From NCBI GenBank assembly GCA_018401565.1, contig JAGYKS010000025.1:310001-374000 (forward strand): a stretch of 64,000 nt of DNA, read 5' to 3'. This DNA is from Acidimicrobiales bacterium (GTDB taxonomy: Bacteria; Actinomycetota; Acidimicrobiia; Acidimicrobiales; Acidimicrobilacustridaceae). The stretch's first letter is position 1. Each line of letters starts with the position of its first letter. Made by a program: the position numbers and the translations under genes. The notes under the pieces are model-generated. The model had not been told where the DNA came from. It was given only the letters and a program-made list of their open reading frames with translations, and did no database searches. Shown piece after piece: positions 7,154 to 43,388 of the stretch.

Positions 7154-7849
7154 ATGAGCCCACCTGATGATTCCGCCCCCGACGGGCCCAAGGCGTTTTT
7201 TCTGTCCGGGGATCTGGCCCGGTATGTGGCCGACCACAGCAGCCAGGCTGATCCGGTCCTGACCGATCTCATTGAGGCGACGCAGGCCCTTGGGGCAGTG
7301 GCGGGAATGCAGATATCAACCGAGCAGGGGGTGTTCATGACCATGCTCACCCGCATGCTGGGGGCCCGCACCGCCATCGAGGTGGGAACGTTCACGGGGT
7401 ACTCGTCGATCTGTATCGCCCGCGGCCTGGCCGAGGGAGGGCGACTCATCGCCTGTGACGTGTCCGACGAATGGACTTCGCTGGCGCGCAAGGCGTGGTT
7501 GGCCGCCGGCGTGGCCGACCGGATCGACCTCCGGTTGGGCCCGGCTGCCGACACCCTTGCGGCCCTGCCGGCCAGTCTGGTGGTGGACCTTGCCTTCATC
7601 GACGCCGACAAGGGCGGGTACCGCACCTACTACGACCTGGTGATGCAGAGACTGCGGCCCGGTGGGGTGATCCTGGTCGACAACGTCTTGTGGTCGGGGC
7701 GGGTGGTGGACGCCGCCAACACCGAGGCCGACACCGTCTCACTGCGTGCGTTCAACAAGTACGTGGCCAGTGACGATCGGGTGGAGGTGGCCATGGTCCC
7801 GCTGGCTGACGGGTTGTCCGTCATTCGCCAGCATGACGAGGCGACATAG
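7154..7849 (+). CDS. SAM-dependent O-methyltransferase, caffeoyl-CoA OMT family
   Basis: This 231-residue class I methyltransferase transfers a methyl group from SAM to a hydroxyl. The SAM-binding motif is AIEVGTFTGYSS, the acidic motif II is LIACDVSDEW, and the metal/catalytic segment is DLAFIDADKGGY...VDNVLWSG, all in the family order. The start at 7154 is preceded by GGAGG at 7141-7145 with ideal 8-base spacing, although the frame is open further upstream. The natural substrate is unknown; bacterial members act on catechols and related small phenols. It is divergent from the ABC transporter block and 107 bp ahead of the haloalkane dehalogenase. Confidence 0.92.
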   Translation: MSPPDDSAPDGPKAFFLSGDLARYVADHSSQADPVLTDLIEATQALGAVAGMQISTEQGVFMTMLTRMLGARTAIEVGTFTGYSSICIARGLAEGGRLIACDVSDEWTSLARKAWLAAGVADRIDLRLGPAADTLAALPASLVVDLAFIDADKGGYRTYYDLVMQRLRPGGVILVDNVLWSGRVVDAANTEADTVSLRAFNKYVASDDRVEVAMVPLADGLSVIRQHDEAT

Positions 7850-7956
7850 CGGCACCGGGCGTGGTGGTCGTGGCATGATCTGACAGTATCGTTGCCACCA
7901 ACTCGGCAAACCCGTACGACCCTGATGCCGTGATTGCCAACCAACCGGAGTGTGCC

Positions 7957-8931
7957 ATGGACGTGTTGCGTACCCCCGACGAACGTTTCGACAATCTGAC
8001 CGACTACCCGTTCGCGCCGAACTACCACCACGTCGACGCCGTTGCTGGTGACGCATCGGCGGGGGTGCTGCGCATGCATTACGTCGACGAGCCCGCGACC
8101 GGAACTGTGTGTGATCCGGCGGAGACGGTGCTGTGCCTTCATGGCGAGCCCAGCTGGAGCTATCTCTACCGCTCGATGGTCCCGATGTTCTCGGCCGCCG
8201 GCATGCGGTGTGTGGCCCCTGATCTCGTGGGGTTCGGACGGTCAGACAAGCCGGCGCTGCGCTCTGACTACACCTATGACCGTCACGTGGCGTGGCTCGG
8301 CCAATTGCTGTTCGAGCGCCTTGATCTTCGCAACATCACCCTGGTGTGTCAGGACTGGGGGGGTCTGCTTGGCCTTCGTCTGGTGGGCGAGCACCCTGAC
8401 CGGTTTGCCCGGGTGGTGGCGGCCAACACCTTTTTGCCCACTGGCGAGCGACCACTCAGCGACGCCTTCCACCGGTGGCGTCAGTTCTCCCAGGAGATCG
8501 AAGAGTTTCCTGTTGCCGCCATCGTCAACGGTGGGTGTGTGGGCCAGTTGTCGGCTGATGCGCTTGCGGCCTACGACGCCCCATTCCCCACCGAGGACTT
8601 CAAGGCCGGCGCCCGACAGTTTCCGACGCTGGTGCCCGACTCCCCAGACGCCCCCGGTGCAGCTGCAAGCAGGGCGGCGTGGGCCGAACTCGAGACCTTC
8701 GACAGGCCGTTTCTCACCGCATTCAGTGACAGCGACCCGGTCACCGCCGGATCGGAGCGATTGATGCATCGACGGATTCCCGGGACTGCCGGCCAGCCCC
8801 ACGTCACCATTACCGAGGCGGGGCACTTCCTTCAGGAAGACAAAGGGCCGCAGCTGGCCCAAGCCGTTATTGACCTGGTTGCTGCAACCCCCGGTCACAC
8901 TGATTTAGACACACTGATTCAGGCACACTGA
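7957..8931 (+). CDS. dhmA: Haloalkane dehalogenase, DhlA/DhmA-like subfamily
   Basis: This alpha/beta hydrolase of 324 residues is predicted to cleave carbon-halogen bonds hydrolytically in the cytoplasm. The oxyanion region is LHGEPSWSY. The nucleophile elbow CQDWGG supplies Asp133, followed by Trp134, the halide-binding residue next to the nucleophile. Asp258 or Asp260 (FSDSDP) is the likely catalytic acid, and His290 (EAGHF) the base. The N-terminal segment TPDERFDNLTDYPF is typical of the DhlA/DhmA branch. The ATG at 7957 has GGAG six bases upstream. Related epoxide hydrolases share the fold but lack the QDW arrangement, so dehalogenase is preferred; the substrate is not known. Confidence 0.85.
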   Translation: MDVLRTPDERFDNLTDYPFAPNYHHVDAVAGDASAGVLRMHYVDEPATGTVCDPAETVLCLHGEPSWSYLYRSMVPMFSAAGMRCVAPDLVGFGRSDKPALRSDYTYDRHVAWLGQLLFERLDLRNITLVCQDWGGLLGLRLVGEHPDRFARVVAANTFLPTGERPLSDAFHRWRQFSQEIEEFPVAAIVNGGCVGQLSADALAAYDAPFPTEDFKAGARQFPTLVPDSPDAPGAAASRAAWAELETFDRPFLTAFSDSDPVTAGSERLMHRRIPGTAGQPHVTITEAGHFLQEDKGPQLAQAVIDLVAATPGHTDLDTLIQAH

Positions 8932-8947
8932 TTCACGGCTCCCTGAA

Positions 8948-8979
8948 TGGAGCAGGGCCCGCTGGTTGGAGCAGGGCCC
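8948..8979. repeat. Direct repeat, 13 bp x 2, in a convergent gap
   Basis: TGGAGCAGGGCCC occurs at 8948-8960 and 8967-8979 (19-bp period), filling the 56-bp gap between the dehalogenase stop and the stop of the convergent small gene. Confidence 0.85.
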
Positions 8980-8987
8980 AGTGGGGA

Positions 8988-9221
8988 TCAGCCGCTGCGC
9001 CGACGCCGACGCCGGGCGGCGTCGATCTTGCGGGCGGCGTCAACGAGCTCCAGTTGTTCCTTGCGTGGCTCAGCGTTGCCATCCACAACGGGGGCAAGGT
9101 TGCGACCTGACGCCTCAAGAAGGCCCGACACCGAAACGCCCTGCTCGGCGGCAAAGTCGTGCCAGGCATCGTGGGCTTCACGGCTCAGGTAGGCGTGGAG
9201 TGCTCGACGGTCATCGCTCAT
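8988..9221 (-). CDS. Small basic protein, possible ribbon-helix-helix type
   Basis: This hypothetical protein of 77 residues starts MSDDRRALHAYLSREAHDAW and ends in a run of arginines (AARRRRRRSG). A segment around residues 10-40 (AYLSREAHDAWHDF, GVSVSGLLEA) has the spacing of a ribbon-helix-helix DNA-binding domain: strand with an uncharged-polar face, helix, turn, helix. This and the Arg-rich tail suggest nucleic acid binding, but I do not recognise the family and give no function. It has its own divergent, AT-richer upstream region, shared with the GntR operon. Confidence 0.6.
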   Translation of the reverse strand: MSDDRRALHAYLSREAHDAWHDFAAEQGVSVSGLLEASGRNLAPVVDGNAEPRKEQLELVDAARKIDAARRRRRRSG

Positions 9222-9468
9222 GTTTTCGGTCCTCGCGTTGGTGGTCCGCATCGATTGTGTTGTTCTGGAACCTTGATGCCCTGCGAACGGTGGGCACGCC
9301 GGCCAACGTGATCAGTGAAACTGTCGCCTCAGTCCAGAATAATGTGATCGGAGATCCTTACTACGTGTAGAAGGTTATGGAAGGTACATGTTTCATACGC
9401 ATGCACCTCACAACTACCTTTATGCAGTGGCAACTATGCCCTTACCGTTATCAACGTATCAGAACCAC

Positions 9469-9639: not shown

Positions 9640-10404
9640 ATGGTTGCGAACTCTGAGCCGGCTAACCGATTGAGTCTGCCCGAGCGGGTTTTCGACGACC
9701 TGTTCGAGAGGATCGTCAGCGGGGCGCTGCAGCCCGGGGAAACGCTCCCGTCCGAACGGCAGTTGACCGAGCAGTTCGGTGTGAACCGCCAGGTGGTGCG
9801 CGAGGCGGTCAAGCGGCTGGTTCACGTCGGGCTGGTGCGATCCGGCCAGGGCGACGGTAACCGGGTGCTGGACTGGTCCTATACCGGGACGTTTGAACTC
9901 GTGGGTCTGCTGGCCATCCGGTCGCGGTCGGGTCGCGACGAACTCGACCAGGTGCTGGCGCGTTCTCTGCTCGAGATCCGCCGGACGTTCGGCATGGAGA
10001 CTGCACGCATGTGTGCCATGCGTGCCGAGCCCGACGTTCTGGATGAGCTCGCCGAGCTGGTCGAGTCCATGCCGTCAGCGGGGAGTCCGACCCAGCGACA
10101 CGCAGCAAACTGGGCATTTTGGTCCCGGCTGGTCGACGGTTCCGGGAACATTTGCTACCGACTCATGCTCAACAGCCTCGGCGCCGCCCTGCCCAAGGCG
10201 GTCATGCTGATGTCGCACTATTCCGAGGGCGTCCCTGCCGACATCGACGGCTACCGCACCCTCGTGGGTGCCATGCGCTCGGGGGATGCCGACGCCTCCG
10301 CCGCTGCGGCCGAGCGCCTGCTGGCCGTGGAGGCCACCGAGTTGGCCAAAGCCGTGGGCATGTTCGACTCCACCGCACCGGAGTTGGCGCCCAGCCCCAC
10401 CTGA
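9640..10404 (+). CDS. GntR-family transcriptional regulator, FadR subfamily
   Basis: This one-component regulator has 254 residues. The N-terminal winged helix is clear: VFDDLFERIVSGALQPGETLPSE, then QLTEQFGVNRQVVREAVKRL, the family hallmark. The rest is an all-helical FCD-like effector domain with RRTFGMETARMCAM and a second helical half (ADASAAAAERL). ATG at 9640 is preceded by GGAGGGG. It is the first gene of a tightly packed six-gene plus-strand operon for gamma-glutamyl-type catabolism. The likely operator at 9469-9485 suggests it represses its own operon and responds to a pathway metabolite; the effector is unknown. Confidence 0.92.
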   Translation: MVANSEPANRLSLPERVFDDLFERIVSGALQPGETLPSERQLTEQFGVNRQVVREAVKRLVHVGLVRSGQGDGNRVLDWSYTGTFELVGLLAIRSRSGRDELDQVLARSLLEIRRTFGMETARMCAMRAEPDVLDELAELVESMPSAGSPTQRHAANWAFWSRLVDGSGNICYRLMLNSLGAALPKAVMLMSHYSEGVPADIDGYRTLVGAMRSGDADASAAAAERLLAVEATELAKAVGMFDSTAPELAPSPT

Positions 10405-10446
10405 CCCCGATCAGCGTTGGTCGATCAACGGTAGGGTGACGGCCCA

Positions 10447-11070
10447 ATGATGGTCGTCCAAATGCTCGGCGTGCTGGCGGTGGTACTCACGTTCGCGCGC
10501 CTGGGCTCGCAGCCCTGGCACAACTTGCGGTCTGGGCATCTCGACGGGGTTTCAGCCACGGCGCTGGGCAACAACCTGGTGTCTGACGTCTTTTGGTTGT
10601 GGTTCGGTCTTCAGGCCGGACTGGCACCGGTGTGGATCGTGGCCGTGCTGGCGCTTCCCATCGACGTGTTGTCGATGGTGGTCGTTCGTTCACGCATCAA
10701 TCGCTGGACGGTGGCGTCGGCGACGGCATGGACGGTGGCACTGGTGGGTGCATGGTGGGTCGCCGGCCTGGGAGGGCTGGGTGCCGTGTTGGTGGTGAGT
10801 GTGGCCGTGGCCATGGCCCCCCAGATGCTCGCCGTCATCCGGTACCCCCGGCTGACCGGGTTGTCGCTGGTCACGGTGGGGCTGTCGCTGGCCGACGCCG
10901 CAGTGTGGGGGGTCTACGGGGCGATGGCCGGTGATGTCACGCTGGTGTTCTACGGCGTCGTTCTGGCCGTCGGTGCCACGGTGATCGGCTGGCGGGTCGT
11001 GGTCACGTCGTTGTCGGGCCGTGACGGATCGGCGGCCCCCGGTGTTGCTGCCTACACTTCGCACCCGTGA
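10447..11070 (+). CDS. PQ-loop (SWEET/semiSWEET-like) membrane protein
   Basis: This integral membrane protein of 207 residues has about seven hydrophobic segments and two copies of the PQ-loop arrangement: SQPWHNLRSGHLDGVSATAL near residues 21-40 and APQMLAVIRYPRLTGLSL near 118-136. The family moves small metabolites or amino acids across membranes; MtN3/SWEET members carry sugars. Its stop overlaps the GTG start of the ligase gene by four bases, so the two are translationally coupled. In this operon it is the only obvious transport candidate, perhaps for the amine substrate or a glutamyl product. That role is inference. Confidence 0.75.
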   Translation: MMVVQMLGVLAVVLTFARLGSQPWHNLRSGHLDGVSATALGNNLVSDVFWLWFGLQAGLAPVWIVAVLALPIDVLSMVVVRSRINRWTVASATAWTVALVGAWWVAGLGGLGAVLVVSVAVAMAPQMLAVIRYPRLTGLSLVTVGLSLADAAVWGVYGAMAGDVTLVFYGVVLAVGATVIGWRVVVTSLSGRDGSAAPGVAAYTSHP

Positions 11071-12455
11071 CTCTGCAGCGGCGAACCGCACCATTGGATC
11101 GTGACGAACAGGCTGTGGTGGACACCCTCACTGCCGACCCGGCCGACTACGTCAAGGTGGCCATCGTCGACATCGACGGCGTGCTCCGGGGCAAATACCT
11201 CGACAAGTCGAAGTTTCTCTCCGCCGTCGAGGGCGGGTTCGGATTCTGCGACGTGGTGTTTGGCTGGGACTCAGCTGACGAGTGCTACGACAACGGCACC
11301 TACACCGGATGGGCCAGCGGCTACCCCGACGGCACGGTGCGCATCGACCTGCACTCCCATCGACGCGTCCCGTGGGAGTCGGGGCGACACCTGTTCCTGT
11401 GCGACTACGTCGGTTCCCAGCCCGACGCCAGCGTCTGCCCCCGGTTGCTGGTGCGTGGTCTCGAACAACGGGCGGCGTCGATGGGTTACGTGGCCAACTT
11501 CGGACTCGAGTTCGAGTGGTTCAACTTCTCGGAGACTCCCCAGTCGTTGCATGCCAAGGACTTCCGCAACCTCGAGCCGCTGAGCCCGGGGATGTTCGGC
11601 TATTCAGTGCTGCGCCAGACCCATTCGCAGGACTTTTTCGATGCCATGCTCACCCAGCTTCGGGCCTTCGGGGTGCCGTTGGAAGGCCTGCACACCGAGA
11701 CCGGTCCCGGGGTGTTCGAAGCGGCGATCGTGTACTCCACCGCCCTGGCCGCTGCCGACCGGGCCACGTTGTTCAAGTCTGGTGTCAAAGAGATCGGCCA
11801 TCGGTTCGGGATCCTGCCCACCTTCATGGCCCGGTTCAACACCGACCTTCCGGGCTGCTCGGGTCATGCCCACCAGAGCCTGTGGGATATCGACGGCGAG
11901 CACAACCTGTTCCACGACGCCACCGGTGAGGGGTCCATGAGCTCCACCATGCGCTCGTGGCTGGCCGGCATCCTTGCGCTGCTGCCCGAGATGCTGGTCA
12001 TGCTCGCTCCCACGGTGAACTCGTACAAGCGTCTGGTCGACGGGTTCTGGGCCCCCACCCGGCCCACCTGGGGCATCGACAATCGCACCGTTGCCGCTCG
12101 GGTCATCCCCGGATCGGCGTCGTCCACCCGTCTGGAGCTTCGGGTCCCGGGGTCCGACGTCAACCCCTACCTGGCCGTGGCGGCGTGCATGGCTGCCGGA
12201 CTGTGGGGAGTCGAGCGGGGACTGGAACTCGACCAGCCGGCCACGGTGGGAAGCGGCTACGCCGACGAGTCGGTGGACCGGCTGCCGCGCAACCTCATGG
12301 ACGCCACCCGCCTGTTCGGCGAGTCGGTGGAGATGCGTGGCCTGCTCGGTGACGCCTTCGTGGACCATTTCGCCGCCACCCGCGAGTGGGAGTGGCGCCA
12401 GTACCAGGACGCCGTCACCGACTGGGAGCTGCGCCGCTACTTCGAGATCATCTGA
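11067..12455 (+). CDS. Glutamine synthetase-like gamma-glutamyl ligase
   Basis: This 462-residue member of the glutamine synthetase superfamily is predicted to join glutamate to an amine using ATP. Catalytic-domain landmarks are present: FGLEFEW (metal-binding Glu), HTETGPGVFEAAI, SGHAHQSLW, NSYKRLVDGFWAPTRPTWGIDNRT, and RLELRVPGSDVNPYLAVAA. The N-terminal beta-grasp segment VDIDGVLRGKYL resembles the PuuA/GlnA3/GlnA4-type ligases more than the housekeeping GlnA, which has a longer adenylylation loop. Its genetic partners are a gamma-glutamyl hydrolase, an aldehyde dehydrogenase and an alcohol dehydrogenase, not nitrogen-assimilation genes. This supports an amine or amino-alcohol substrate. 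GTG at 11067 overlaps the previous stop. Confidence 0.87.
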   Translation: MTLQRRTAPLDRDEQAVVDTLTADPADYVKVAIVDIDGVLRGKYLDKSKFLSAVEGGFGFCDVVFGWDSADECYDNGTYTGWASGYPDGTVRIDLHSHRRVPWESGRHLFLCDYVGSQPDASVCPRLLVRGLEQRAASMGYVANFGLEFEWFNFSETPQSLHAKDFRNLEPLSPGMFGYSVLRQTHSQDFFDAMLTQLRAFGVPLEGLHTETGPGVFEAAIVYSTALAAADRATLFKSGVKEIGHRFGILPTFMARFNTDLPGCSGHAHQSLWDIDGEHNLFHDATGEGSMSSTMRSWLAGILALLPEMLVMLAPTVNSYKRLVDGFWAPTRPTWGIDNRTVAARVIPGSASSTRLELRVPGSDVNPYLAVAACMAAGLWGVERGLELDQPATVGSGYADESVDRLPRNLMDATRLFGESVEMRGLLGDAFVDHFAATREWEWRQYQDAVTDWELRRYFEII

Positions 12456-37155: not shown

Positions 37156-37437
37156 TCAGGGCGGCAGGTACTCAAACTTGGTGTCGCCAGGCACGTAGGC
37201 CATCCGACGGTGAAGCTCCACGGCATCGGTCCAGGGGTTGCTCCCGAACACCTCCACGGTGCCGCTGTCGGGGCGGAGCAGACCCAACATGATGCGCATG
37301 GTGACGGTCTTGCCCGACCCGTTGGGCCCGAGGAACCCGTGGATCTCGCCGGCCGACACGTCAAGGCTCAGACCGTCAAGTGCCCGGGTGGCACCGAACG
37401 TCTTGACCAGGTCTCGGGCCATCAGCACGGTGGTCAT
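37156..37437 (-). pseudogene. Truncated ABC transporter ATPase
   Basis: The 93-residue product has the start of an ABC-2-type ATPase: [20 protein letters not shown], Walker [11 protein letters not shown], and the strand leading to the Q-loop ([17 protein letters not shown]). It then stops, before the signature and Walker B motifs, directly against the glutaredoxin gene. No other frame continues it. About two thirds of the gene is missing, pointing to a deletion or rearrangement with the breakpoint at about 37150, or a misassembly there. No permease gene is beside it. Confidence 0.8.
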
Positions 37438-37546
37438 GGCCACGACCGTATCTGCGTATCGGAAGCCGGCACAGGGCCCTGCGGCCCTACCGGTGACCAC
37501 GATGCAGAAAGCCTAAGGTGATTCCACATCTTCTTGAAGGGGCATC

Positions 37547-38518: not shown

Positions 38519-38609
38519 ACGGCGGTCAGTTGGTCGCCCGCAGCGACCACAAGCAGTGTGGTGACAGGCCCCATGCCGTAAGGTTCGCCTGCTGTCGACG
38601 AGGTAACCA

Positions 38610-40690
38610 ATGACACGTGTAGCGAAATACATGACCTCTCGGCCATGGCTGGGTGGCGGGCTGGTTGCTTTGGTGACGCTGGTCGCCGTGGGGGGCTGGT
38701 ACGTCTGGGACCAGGTGAACGTGCCCGACATCACGGTGTCGTACGCCGTGCCCACCGCTCCCCAGCTCGCCGCCGGTGGCTCCAGCCAGACGCTGTACCG
38801 CATCGACCCACTGGAATCGTCGGTGACCTACGCCGTCGACGAGATTCTGGCCGGGTGTCGCGCACCGCCAATGGCTCCACCCAGGGCATTGCCGGTGACC
38901 TTGTCATTGACGATGCCGACCCGTCGGCGTCGGTACTCGGTGAGGTGATGGTCAATGTGCAGCAGCTCACCTCGGATCAGTCGCTGCGGGATCGCCGCAT
39001 CCGCCAGGACTTCTTGGAATCCGGCCACTACCCGCTGGTGCGGTTCGTGCCCGGTGCCATCGACGGGATGCCGGCGTCGATCACCGATGGGGAGGCCTAC
39101 GACATCACCATTGGCGGCCAGCTCACCGTCAAGGAGACCACCGCCCCGGTGGTGCTCAACGCCACCGCAACGCGAACCGGTGACGAGGTGTCGGTGACGG
39201 CGTCGACCACCGTGGCGATGTCCACGTTCGATATCGGGCCCATTGAGCTCATCGGTTTTGTGCGAACCGGTGACGAGGTCACGCTTGATTTTGACCTGAC
39301 CTACGTGGACCCGACCCGTCGCACCATCGCCACCGAGGTGCCGGGACGTTCGGGCACCACGACGGCCACGGCCGGGGGTGGACCGTCGTTTGCCAGCACC
39401 GTGCAGCCGGTGCTGACCAACAGCTGTGCGTCGTGCCACAACGACGGCGGGGTGGGGGCCATGGTGTGGACCCTGGGCACCGCCGCCGATGCGGCAGAGA
39501 TCGCGTCGGGGTTGAGCCTGGTCACCGCATCGCGGTTCATGCCCCCGTGGCCCGCCGGCGATCTGGGCGGCCCGTTTGACCACAATCCCTCGCTGAGTCA
39601 GGACGACATCGACGCCGTGGTGTCGTGGGCCGCCGCCGGTGGGGAACTCGACGTGGACCCGGCCACCCCGATCGTTGCTCCGGTGGTGCCGGGGTCGGGC
39701 CTGACACCCGATGTGGTGATGGCTCTGGCCGAGCCCTATCAGGGCTCCACGCTGGTGCGTAACGACTACCGCTGCTTCATGGTGGATCCCGCCCTGACCG
39801 ACACCACGTGGGTTGCCGGCTACGAGTTCGTCCCCGACCGTGCCGAGGTGGTGCACCACGCTTTGGCGTTCCGGATCCCGGGAAATGAACGGGACCGCAT
39901 TGTGGCCCTTGACGAAGCCGGCGACGGCAGCGGCTGGGATTGCGATGCCGGTGTGGCCATGTCCAACCAGTTCATGGGATGGGCCCCGGGGCAGGACCCC
40001 ACCAAGTTCCCCGACGGCACGGCCATGCGCATGGACGCCGGAGACGTGGTGGTGCTGCAGATCCACTACCACTTCACCCATAGTGCTCCGCTCGACCAGT
40101 CGGCATTGCAGTTCGAGTTGGCCCCGGCGGGGTCGACTCCCATTGAGGTCGGCTACCGCACCTACCTGGCTCCTGCCGAGATCCCGTGTCGAGACGGCAT
40201 CGAGGCTGGTCCGCTGTGCGACCGCGGGGCAGCCATTGCCGACCTGTTTGATCGACTGGGAATGTTCGGTGCCATTCCTGACGCCTTGTTGCGCCAGTGC
40301 GGTAATACGCCAGACGAGTACGCCGCCATGACCAATGGCGTGGCATCAGCGAGCTGTAACCACACCATTCGTCGGGACGTGGACGTGATCGCCGTGTTCG
40401 GCCACATGCACGAAATTGGTGATGCGTTCCGCATGACGCTCAATCCCGGCACCGCCACCGAGCGCATCCTGCTCGACATCCCGGCGTGGGACTTCGGGTG
40501 GCAGCTGAACTACCGGTTCACCGATCCGGTGGCCTTGACTGCCGGCGATGTGATCCGGGTGGAGTGCACCTGGGACCGAGCGCATCTCAAGGTGCCGGAA
40601 AACCGGTACATCACGTGGTCCGAGGGCACCGAGGACGAGATGTGCTACTCGGCACTCACCACGCTGCCGCCGCGGGGCCAGCGCAGCTGA
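38610..40690 (+). CDS. Membrane-anchored YceI - cytochrome c - copper monooxygenase fusion (one frameshift)
   Basis: This three-domain extracytoplasmic protein has about 693 residues. A single N-terminal membrane anchor (LGGGLVALVTLVAVGGWYVW) precedes a YceI-like lipocalin domain (YRIDPLESSVTYAVDE to the FDLTYVDP end). A one-heme cytochrome c follows, with CASCH and the axial Met in RFMPPWPAG. Then comes a PHM/dopamine-beta-monooxygenase-like domain with CuA histidines in VVHHALAF and CuB ligands in IHYHF; FGHMHEIG lies near the end. The frame breaks near 38850-38857 in the first YceI strands. It is probably a copper oxygenase fed with electrons by its own heme and possibly quinone-like lipid; the substrate is unknown. 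Confidence 0.8.
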
Positions 40691-40727
40691 CCGGACGCTG
40701 GCCGGGTGGCGGTCGTAGCCTGTGCAG

Positions 40728-43388
40728 ATGTCGTTGCGTGGGGTGCAGGCTTACCGACCCGGTGGTCGTGGAGTGAGGACGTTGGTGGCGCTGATCTGCT
40801 GCGTGCTGGTGGTGTCGGTCGTGCCTGTGGCGGGAGCCGACCCAACGTCGTCTGGCCAGTTGGTGGAAGGCCAGCCATTGCCGGTGTCAGCGGAGTCGGT
40901 GCCGGCGGAATCGGTGTACGACGAGTCCGACGAGTCCGATGAGTCCGACGTGAACGCAGTGCCTCTGGCGTCGCCGGTCGCACTCCCGGCTCCCGCGCAG
41001 CAGCTGACCGGTGGCGGGGTGCATTCGTGTGCGGTGGATGCCGATGGCATCGTGTCGTGCTGGGGTGGCAACACCGCAGGCCAGGCAGTCCCCCCGTCCG
41101 GACGGTTCGTATCGGTGGCTGCGGGTGGGTCGCACAGTTGTGCGGTGGGCGTGGATGCCACTGTGACGTGTTGGGGCGCCAACACTGCTGGTCAGTCGTC
41201 TCCGCCGGCGGGTTCGTTCACGACGCCGGCTGCGGGTGGGTCGCACAGTTGTGCGGTGGGCGTGGATGACACCGTGACGTGTTGGGGCGCCAACACTGCT
41301 GGTCAGTCGACTCCGCCGGCCGGTTCGTTTGTGTCGGTTACTGCTGGGGAGTCGCACAGTTGTGCGGTGGGTGTGGATGCCACCGTGACGTGTTGGGGCG
41401 CCAACCTTGATGATCAGTCGACTCCGCCAGCGGGATCGTTCGTGTCGGTGTCGGCCGGCGACAATCACACCTGCGCGCTGGGGACCAACGACCGGGTGGT
41501 GTGCTGGGGTGATAACGAGTTCGAACAGCTGTCGGCACCCGCAGAGGCGTTCGAGCAGATCTCATCGGGTTCCAATCATGTGTGCGGCGTGCTTGATTCT
41601 GGGGGCCTGAGATGTTGGGGTGCGGCCATCAACGTGGTCAACAACGTCTTCACCCCGCTACCGGAAGGTCTGTTCACTGAGGTGTTGTCAGGCCGACTGC
41701 ACTCGTGTGGCGCCCGACCCGATGGATCAGTGGTGTGCTGGGGCAGTAACGCGTTTGGTCAGTTTGCGTCGCCATGGTCGGGAACGTTCACCGCCGTGTC
41801 AGCCGGCGCTCGCCACTGGTGCGCGGTCACCACCGATGGCAGCGTGGAGTGCTGGGGCAACAACGACTTCGGCCAATCCACACCTCCAACAACGGGAACA
41901 TTCACCGAGTGTGGCGTCGGGAGCGGCCCACACCTGTGGGTTGCGATCCGATGCCACGGTGGTGTGTTGGGGCAGGAACGTGGAGGGCCAGTCGTCCCCC
42001 CTGACACCCCTGTCGACAACGTTCACCCAGGTATCAGCCGGTCGGTTCAACACCTGTGGTGTGCGCACCGGCGGCACCGTGGTGTGCTGGGGCAACGATG
42101 GCTTTGGTCAACTGGCCGTTCCGTCGGGTTCGTTCACCAGGGTGTCGGTGGGCGGGCTCCACGTGTGCGGAGTGCGCCCCAATCAGACGCTGGCGTGCTG
42201 GGGTTTCAACTCCAACGGCCAGACCAATGCCCCCACCGGTAGGTTCAGCGGGGTGTCAGCGGGTGACGACCACAGCTGTGGTGTGCGCACCGATGGCACC
42301 GTGGTGTGCTGGGGAAGCAACGGCGCCGGGCAGGCCTCGCCCCCGTGGGGCACCTTCACCACTGTGGACAGCGGGGCCACCCGCTCGTGCGGTGTGCGTT
42401 CGGACCAGCAGGTGGTGTGCTGGGGAAGCGATCTCGCCGGTGGCGCAACTCCTCCGGCCGGACCGTTCGCAGCGGTCACCGCCGGTGGCGACAACGCGTG
42501 TGGACTCACCAGCCAGGAAGTCGTGGTGTGCTGGGGTTCTCAGGCATCGCTCAGCGGATCACCCGCTCCCGGGCCGCCCACCAACGTCCGGGCCCGAGTG
42601 GTTGCGGGAAGCGCCACCGTGTCGTGGACACCTCCTGTCGACGATGCCGGGTCGCCGGTCACCGGCTACACCGTGACCGTCTGGCCAGGTGGGGCGGGAT
42701 GCACCTCGGTTGCCCCGGCAACGTCGTGTGGCGTGGCGGGCCTGAGTCAGTCAGCCGCGGTGCGATTCACGGTGACGGCGACCAATGCCCGCGGGTCCTC
42801 GATGCCGTCGGCGGGCACGATTCCGGTGGTGCCGGGTGTGTGTGGGGTGGTTCCGACGGCATTTTCTGACGAGTTGGCCATCCCGAAATTCGCCAAGCGC
42901 GGAGCGTCGTGTCTTTCCGAGCGTGACATCACCACCAACGATCCCTACAACGCCTATGGCGCAGTGAGCCGGGCCCAGATGGCGGCCTTCCTTTGGCGCA
43001 TGGCCGGTTCGCCCCCGTCACCGTCGTCGTGTGGTTTCGCTGACGAATCTTTCATACCGCTGTTCGCCCGTCCCGGGGCGTGCTGGCTGAAGGCCGAGGG
43101 CATCACCACGGTCAATCCTACAATCCGGCCGGGATCGTGAACCGGGGTCAGATGGCCAAGTTCCTGTGGGTGTTTTCTGGCGGGCCCGACAGCGAGTCGG
43201 AATGTGGATTTGTCGACCAGGAGTCGATCCGTCCCGACTTCCGTGAAGGGGCGTGCTGGTTGAAGGCCAACGGCATCACCACCAACAACCCGTACCGCCC
43301 CGTTGCGCAGGTGACCCGTGGCGAGATGGCGGCGTTTTTGTACCGCACCGGAGGGCACAACGCCCAGTGGGTGAGCGTGGCGCCCTGA
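40728..43388 (+). CDS. Secreted RCC1-repeat / fibronectin III / SLH-like protein (two frameshifts)
   Basis: This exported protein has about 886 residues. Signal peptide LVALICCVLVVSVVPVAGA is followed by an acidic Ser/Asp linker (DESDESDESD). Fourteen RCC1-like repeats of about 37 residues follow, each with HSCAV...V.CWG.N and PP.G.F..V.AG, so a Cys pair sits in every blade. Next are a fibronectin III domain (PTNVRARVVAGSATVSWTPP) and three SLH-like repeats with Cys pairs (GACWLKAEGITT). Frame breaks near 41905 and 43117 are compensating in length. The first repeats are nearly identical at the DNA level (41117-41449). It is probably a surface-bound beta-propeller. Confidence 0.82.
41117..41449 (+). 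repeat. Near-identical tandem repeat, 111 bp x 3, in the RCC1 gene
   Basis: Three successive 111-bp units (37 codons) share long perfect stretches such as GTCGCACAGTTGTGCGGTGG at 41129, 41240 and 41351. They are much more alike than later repeats in the same gene, so this block was duplicated or homogenised recently. Confidence 0.88.

Follow-up and report, generated by a model that had tools for sequence, protein, structure and literature searches.

A membrane-anchored fusion of YceI, cytochrome c and PHM-type copper oxygenase domains in Acidimicrobiia, with a possible quinol-fed electron path

A single actinobacterial gene encodes a protein in which an N-terminal membrane anchor is followed by a YceI domain, a mono-heme cytochrome c domain and a dicopper oxygenase domain of the PHM type. 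Each part is of a known family; the combination of the three appears to be new. The gene lies at positions 38610-40690 on the forward strand of the window, that is, the whole 64,000-nucleotide stretch of Acidimicrobiales DNA that was analysed, and it comprises 693 codons and a stop once a one-base deletion is read through. The explanation that best accounts for the evidence as a whole is a membrane-anchored oxygenase of the PHM fold that would receive its electrons from the heme, which in turn would be fed by a quinol held in the YceI domain, and we give this explanation about an even chance of being correct.

The fusion may let a copper oxygenase draw its power from the membrane rather than from vitamin C, and it is a pointer to an oxidation, not yet described, on the cell surface of common environmental actinobacteria. 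The two coppers of PHM-type enzymes lie well apart, and the passage of electrons between them has long been a question; what takes the place of ascorbate with such enzymes in bacteria is another. A natural donor and oxygenase in one chain makes both questions testable in a single recombinant protein with an optical heme readout. In addition, YceI barrels, for which many roles have been proposed, would gain a defined redox partner.

Gene structure and reading frame

The frame changes after codon 82 of the fusion gene: the 611 codons that follow (38855-40687) are read in a frame other than that of codons 1-82, and the GGG at the junction is short of one G (Table 1). Here, DEILAG followed by VSRTANGSTQGIAGD aligns gap-free to GETLAG-IDKTATGSTQGIAGD of the uninterrupted gene of the same genus, and in the same-genus homologues L002 and L003 the sequence ETLAG-I/F-DKTATG runs uninterrupted across the position of the break. 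Furthermore, about 30 other fusion genes from the sampled Acidimicrobiia genomes each form one open frame. The earlier note had considered that position 38853 might be a real gene end separating YceI from the rest. Because every other fused homologue found is a single open frame, a gene end at this position is ruled out, and the break is, judging from these alignments, a one-base frameshift specific to the window assembly and not a gene boundary.

A sequence error is a likelier cause of the break than decay or a very recent mutation, since other frame breaks are present in the window, including one in the neighbouring gene. This gene (40722-43140), which encodes RCC1 repeats (CWG/CGV) and adjoins the fusion gene, has its repeats in one frame to about 41,910 and in another from about 41,935. 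A coding-potential scan returned further candidate frame switches without a nearby stop at positions 813, 18700, 28690, 33470, 34720, 56477 and 60153, which suggest an indel-prone assembly. That the window copy is instead a decaying pseudogene, with the enzyme absent from the host organism, is very improbable: the deletion does shift the frame after codon 82, but it is a single lesion, no ligand has been lost, and the differences by codon position show the window gene to be under constraint, with no amino-acid acceleration in any domain. The other frame breaks, that of the RCC1-repeat gene among them, likewise point to assembly errors rather than decay.

On the other strand, at 37156-37500 (-), the window carries a short ABC-transporter ATPase gene that stops soon after the Walker A region and is probably truncated or frameshifted.

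Domain architecture

Pfam matches in the read-through protein follow the order YceI, cytochrome and copper oxygenase. Together with the anchor and the uninterrupted relatives, this order bears out the chain proposed in the earlier note, an anchored YceI joined to a cytochrome c and a copper monooxygenase. Two of the matches lie above their cut-offs, namely YceI and Cu2_monoox_C (PF03712, residues 572-680; 24.2 bits, cut-off 23), and two lie below, namely Cu2_monooxygen (PF01082, residues 387-488; 21.7 bits, cut-off 30) and Cytochrome_CBB3 (PF13442, residues 267-319; 18.3 bits, cut-off 27). The sole hydrophobic stretch at the N-terminus is LGGGLVALVTLVAVGGWYV. Codon-position differences indicate purifying selection on all three domains.

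Table 1. Features of the fusion gene and its product (positions in the window; residues numbered in the read-through protein)
Feature	Position	Strand	Basis
Complete YceI-cytochrome c-PHM gene	38610..40690	+	ATG 38610 to TGA 40690, read through the deletion
Ribosome-binding-like GAGG (from 38600) ahead of the ATG start	38600..38612	+	Sequence; start agrees with same-genus homologues
Frameshift site, GGG one base short of frame	38853..38855	+	Frame change relative to uninterrupted homologues
N-terminal membrane anchor, residues 14-32	38649..38705	+	Hydrophobicity; kept in all fused homologues
YceI lipocalin-like domain, residues 63-231	38796..39301	+	PF04264, E 1e-22; PDB YceI matches by profile and fold
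Low-conservation linker, YceI to cytochrome	39317..39391	+	Alignment
Mono-heme cytochrome c domain, residues 262-350	39392..39658	+	Weak PF13442 match in 14/15 members; conservation
CASCH heme-binding motif	39425..39439	+	CxxCH in 37/37 homologues having the cytochrome domain
Met311, putative axial heme ligand, MPPW motif	39539..39541	+	Invariant, 37/37
PHM/DBM-type dicopper oxygenase, residues 370-690	39716..40678	+	PF01082, PF03712; PHM profile match; orthologue fold match to PHM
His416-His417, CuH ligands (PHM H107, H108)	39854..39859	+	Invariant, 38/38; PHM alignment
His486, CuH ligand (PHM H172)	40064..40066	+	Invariant, 38/38; PHM alignment
His599-Met-His601, CuM ligands (PHM H242, H244)	40403..40411	+	Invariant, 38/38; PHM alignment
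Met678, CuM ligand (PHM M314)	40640..40642	+	Invariant, 38/38; PHM alignment

The copper oxygenase domain

In a profile alignment to rat PHM, the VHH, QVHY, HxH and DEMC motifs of the fusion pair with H107/H108, H172, H242/H244 and M314, respectively. All six PHM copper ligands are present and invariant across the 38 aligned homologues; an incomplete set in a model had been named in the earlier note as a ground for refutation. The same 38 proteins share eight invariant cysteines and have the equivalents of PHM Y79, Q170 and Q272 throughout. An AlphaFold model of the cytochrome-PHM part of an intact orthologue (L022), made with five sequences and of moderate confidence (pLDDT 66, pTM 0.61), matches the fold of PHM and DBM chains with E about 5e-12 and TM about 0.6 by target; at E <1e-9 it matches no other chains. 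Compared to animal PHM, the stretch between the two copper-binding parts is extended by about 45 residues and contains a PAEIPC...GPLCDR motif with invariant cysteines, the conserved positions being residues 527, 537, 564 and 583 of the window protein.

The relatives of this domain in humans, PHM and DBM, are hormone-processing oxygenases. In PHM, the residues R240, N316 and Y318 hold the carboxylate of peptidyl-glycine. These residues are replaced throughout the fusion family, mostly by L/F/M, F/Y and T/S/A, that is, by hydrophobic or small residues. Because of this replacement the substrate is probably not peptidyl-glycine, which makes the peptidyl-glycine-like substrates suggested in the earlier note unlikely. 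From the residues kept and lost, the C-terminal half has probably retained the copper chemistry of PHM with a change of substrate.

The cytochrome c and YceI domains

Among the 38 aligned homologues, 37 have the cytochrome domain, and each of these contains both CxxCH and the axial Met; a chance occurrence of CxxCH is ruled out, the motif being invariant together with its Met. The N-terminal part of a second AlphaFold model, that of the full-length orthologue and of low confidence (pLDDT 54), matches the YceI structures 1wub, 5ixh and 1y0g. The YceI domain is conserved over the 27 fused rows of the alignment, and the constraint on it is close to that on the catalytic domain. The ligands of known YceI proteins include ubiquinone-8, other isoprenoids and lipids (PMC9113575).

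Distribution and origin of the family

In 296 Acidimicrobiia genomes searched by profile, full-length fusions turned up in 22, the window genome included, cytochrome-PHM proteins without YceI in seven and PHM-only proteins in nine. A search for relatives added fusions in five more genomes (G001, G002, G004, G011 and G041) and the YceI-less form in G052. In a sample of 396 genomes of the phylum, neither the fusion nor a cytochrome-PHM protein was found outside the class, where the one match was a PHM fragment in G506. A single-protein search of named contigs gave four loci, and the matching named records are from Acidimicrobiales and Ilumatobacter. One of these (L021) is identical as a contig to L004, a member of the window's family, and thereby places the window in Acidimicrobiia. 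A record under the title Bifidobacterium breve (L022, CAMAQM010000017.1) bears the Acidimicrobiia fusion gene and agrees with a genome from the genus of the window; its title is probably wrong. No relative was found on viral contigs, and plasmids yielded two matches only, a PHM-only protein in Nonomuraea and an isolated YceI in Thermomicrobium. The Nonomuraea gerenzanensis relative (L101, NZ_LT559118.1) is PHM-only, 36% identical over the oxygenase, and its locus on a Streptosporangiales replicon carries no gene annotation.

In the cytochrome-PHM tree, the 27 YceI-bearing rows and the YceI-less L053 form one group (support 90/73), the two halves of which are supported at 95/94 and 97/98. This topology is what a single gain of YceI and a single loss would be expected to give. 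YceI is kept in all members of the clade but L053. In the tree of YceI domains, the fused YceI sequences also form one group (96/90), which adjoins the free YceI proteins of Acidimicrobiia. Both trees fit a single fusion event in which an anchored YceI specific to the class was joined to a cytochrome-PHM protein.

The YceI-less proteins bear on whether YceI takes part in catalysis. YceI could be a mere spacer or a lipid-antioxidant module near the membrane, leaving cytochrome-PHM as the whole catalytic unit, like that of the sister lipoproteins. In ten YceI-less cytochrome-PHM homologues every ligand is retained, and L053, inside the fused clade, has YceI neither in its own chain nor encoded in its vicinity; indeed, at the loci examined no YceI gene was found near any of the YceI-less forms. 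However, the conservation of YceI across the 27 fused rows, under a constraint about equal to that on the catalytic domain, speaks against a passive role, and we consider the spacer or antioxidant reading distinctly unlikely.

Tandem fusions and the YceI-heme unit

One genome (G302; L058, G302:C1) carries two fusion genes in tandem, at 7184-9448 and 9940-12162. The pair shares a 1,034-bp tract that is identical base for base (7364-8397 and 9985-11018) and spans the anchor, YceI and heme, stopping just before the oxygenase at residue 404 of the first copy, whereas DNA identity between the oxygenase halves is only about 60-80%. The tract would be most simply read as a gene conversion that carried the N-terminal half from one oxygenase to the other, an assembly error being possible. 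The pair suggests that the YceI-heme half behaves as a unit separate from that of the oxygenase. Between the two copies, L058 9449-9864 encodes a small membrane-anchored protein that looks cupredoxin-like by eye (NHDVADH ... CTVHP); no Pfam family matches it significantly, and near the other fusion loci no relative was found.

Genomic neighbourhood and cytochrome c maturation

Across families, the fusion gene has no conserved operon partners apart from a cytochrome c maturation (ccm) operon in family f28. In the four genomes and two genera of this family, the fusion gene lies directly 3' of the operon (L068-L070, L075), which comprises an ABC ATPase in the CcmA position, CcmB, CcmC, CcmE, CcmF, a thioredoxin-like protein in the CcmG position, CcmH and a TPR protein. 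The window's own genome carries CcmF. Since almost every genome of the class has CcmF (271 of the 296), its presence alone says little about heme loading, and its co-occurrence with the fusion was dropped as proof thereof. No CcmF match was found in G055, a genome that is 96% complete and has two fusions.

Proposed mechanism

In the mechanism that we favour, the protein would be anchored in the cytoplasmic membrane and face outwards, with its heme presumably attached by the Ccm system. The YceI barrel beside the membrane would hold a quinol or another isoprenoid that reduces the heme, menaquinol being the quinol expected in the phylum. The c-type heme, situated between the anchor half and the oxygenase, would replace ascorbate and pass single electrons to CuH, and the C-terminal half of the PHM/DBM fold would activate O2 at CuM and hydroxylate or oxidatively cleave its substrate. 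Bacteria are not known to make ascorbate, which is the usual reductant of PHM. An electron path from an isoprenoid in YceI through heme to copper is plausible, and the step from quinol to heme is proposed because YceI structures hold ubiquinone-8 or isoprenoids (PMC9113575) and a Cbp2D cytochrome reduces copper LPMOs (PMC8981238).

This mechanism is favoured because the copper ligands and the three further PHM equivalents are invariant and the fold matches PHM/DBM only, because the heme motif and its Met are universal among the cytochrome-bearing homologues while the host genome has CcmF and the f28 fusion follows the ccm genes, because YceI is kept and constrained within the fused clade, and because the identical G302 tract fits a YceI-heme delivery unit that serves two oxygenases. 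Against it stand the sister cytochrome-PHM proteins, in which YceI is evidently dispensable for reduction, the two fusions of G055 in a genome without a CcmF match, and the low to moderate confidence of the models; YceI barrels, moreover, bind non-redox lipids too. Electron transfer by Cbp2D, as measured, was furthermore judged slow (PMC10154616). A bolder form of the favoured mechanism, which we advance tentatively as possible rather than probable, would make the protein the first known PHM relative with an electron line of its own, leading from a quinol barrel through heme and CuH to CuM without ascorbate, and the YceI-heme half an exchangeable power unit for different oxygenase halves, a role to which the G302 tandem pair would point.

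The main rival to electron delivery by YceI is that the barrel presents the substrate: it would lift a polyisoprenoid or another lipid from the membrane for the PHM domain to hydroxylate or cleave, and a separate respiratory cytochrome or cupredoxin would feed the heme. The YceI family binds several isoprenoids and lipids (PMC9113575), the mostly hydrophobic or small residues in place of R240, N316 and Y318 suit a non-peptide substrate, and the sister proteins manage without YceI, so that their heme can be reduced from elsewhere. However, the closest characterised protein with YceI and cytochrome domains is tied to electron delivery (PMC8981238), and an identical YceI-heme half beside a diverged catalytic half, as in G302, fits a shared donor better than two substrates. 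Substrate presentation is regarded as rather unlikely, although the G302 pair is compatible with it.

Comparison with known systems

A literature search, with subscription journals and domain-architecture databases outside its scope, found no description of the three-part fusion. Its oxygenase half resembles PHM and DBM in its fold, the six copper ligands, the equivalents of Y79, Q170 and Q272, and the cysteines of the 81-126 and 293-315 pairs. It differs from them in lacking the residues for the peptide carboxylate, in the extra inter-domain stretch with its conserved cysteines, and in being anchored and fused to heme and YceI, with no ascorbate expected.

The uncharacterised cytochrome c-PHM proteins of the class (L012, L023, L024, L048-L054) have the same heme and copper sites, form sister branches in the tree and are 36-44% identical to the fusion (three aligned), but they lack YceI, and some have a lipobox-like N-terminus in place of the YceI anchor. 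Conversely, the free anchored YceI proteins of Acidimicrobiia (L088-L091, L095) share the N-terminal extension and are the nearest relatives of the fused YceI half, but have no cytochrome or PHM domain. In the alphaproteobacterial LcoA-BcnA chimeras of cytochrome b561 and YceI, YceI is likewise tied to the membrane beside a heme protein (PMC9113575). The cytochrome of these chimeras, however, is a transmembrane one of the b type, no copper oxygenase is present, and their role is the detoxification of lipid peroxyls.

The earlier note could name no similar documented enzyme, yet a documented relative of the idea exists in Cellvibrio japonicus. Cbp2D and Cbp2E carry a YceI-like X158 domain and are linked to the reduction of copper monooxygenases, and Cbp2D in addition has two c-type cytochrome domains, of which one acts as a reductant of copper LPMOs (PMC8981238). 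Both proteins are secreted and bear carbohydrate-binding modules, which are absent among the Pfam families of the fusion members scanned, and the LPMO, which has a different fold, is not part of their chain. Cbp2D is the nearest documented analogue of the fusion, which for its part joins the putative donor and the oxygenase in one chain.
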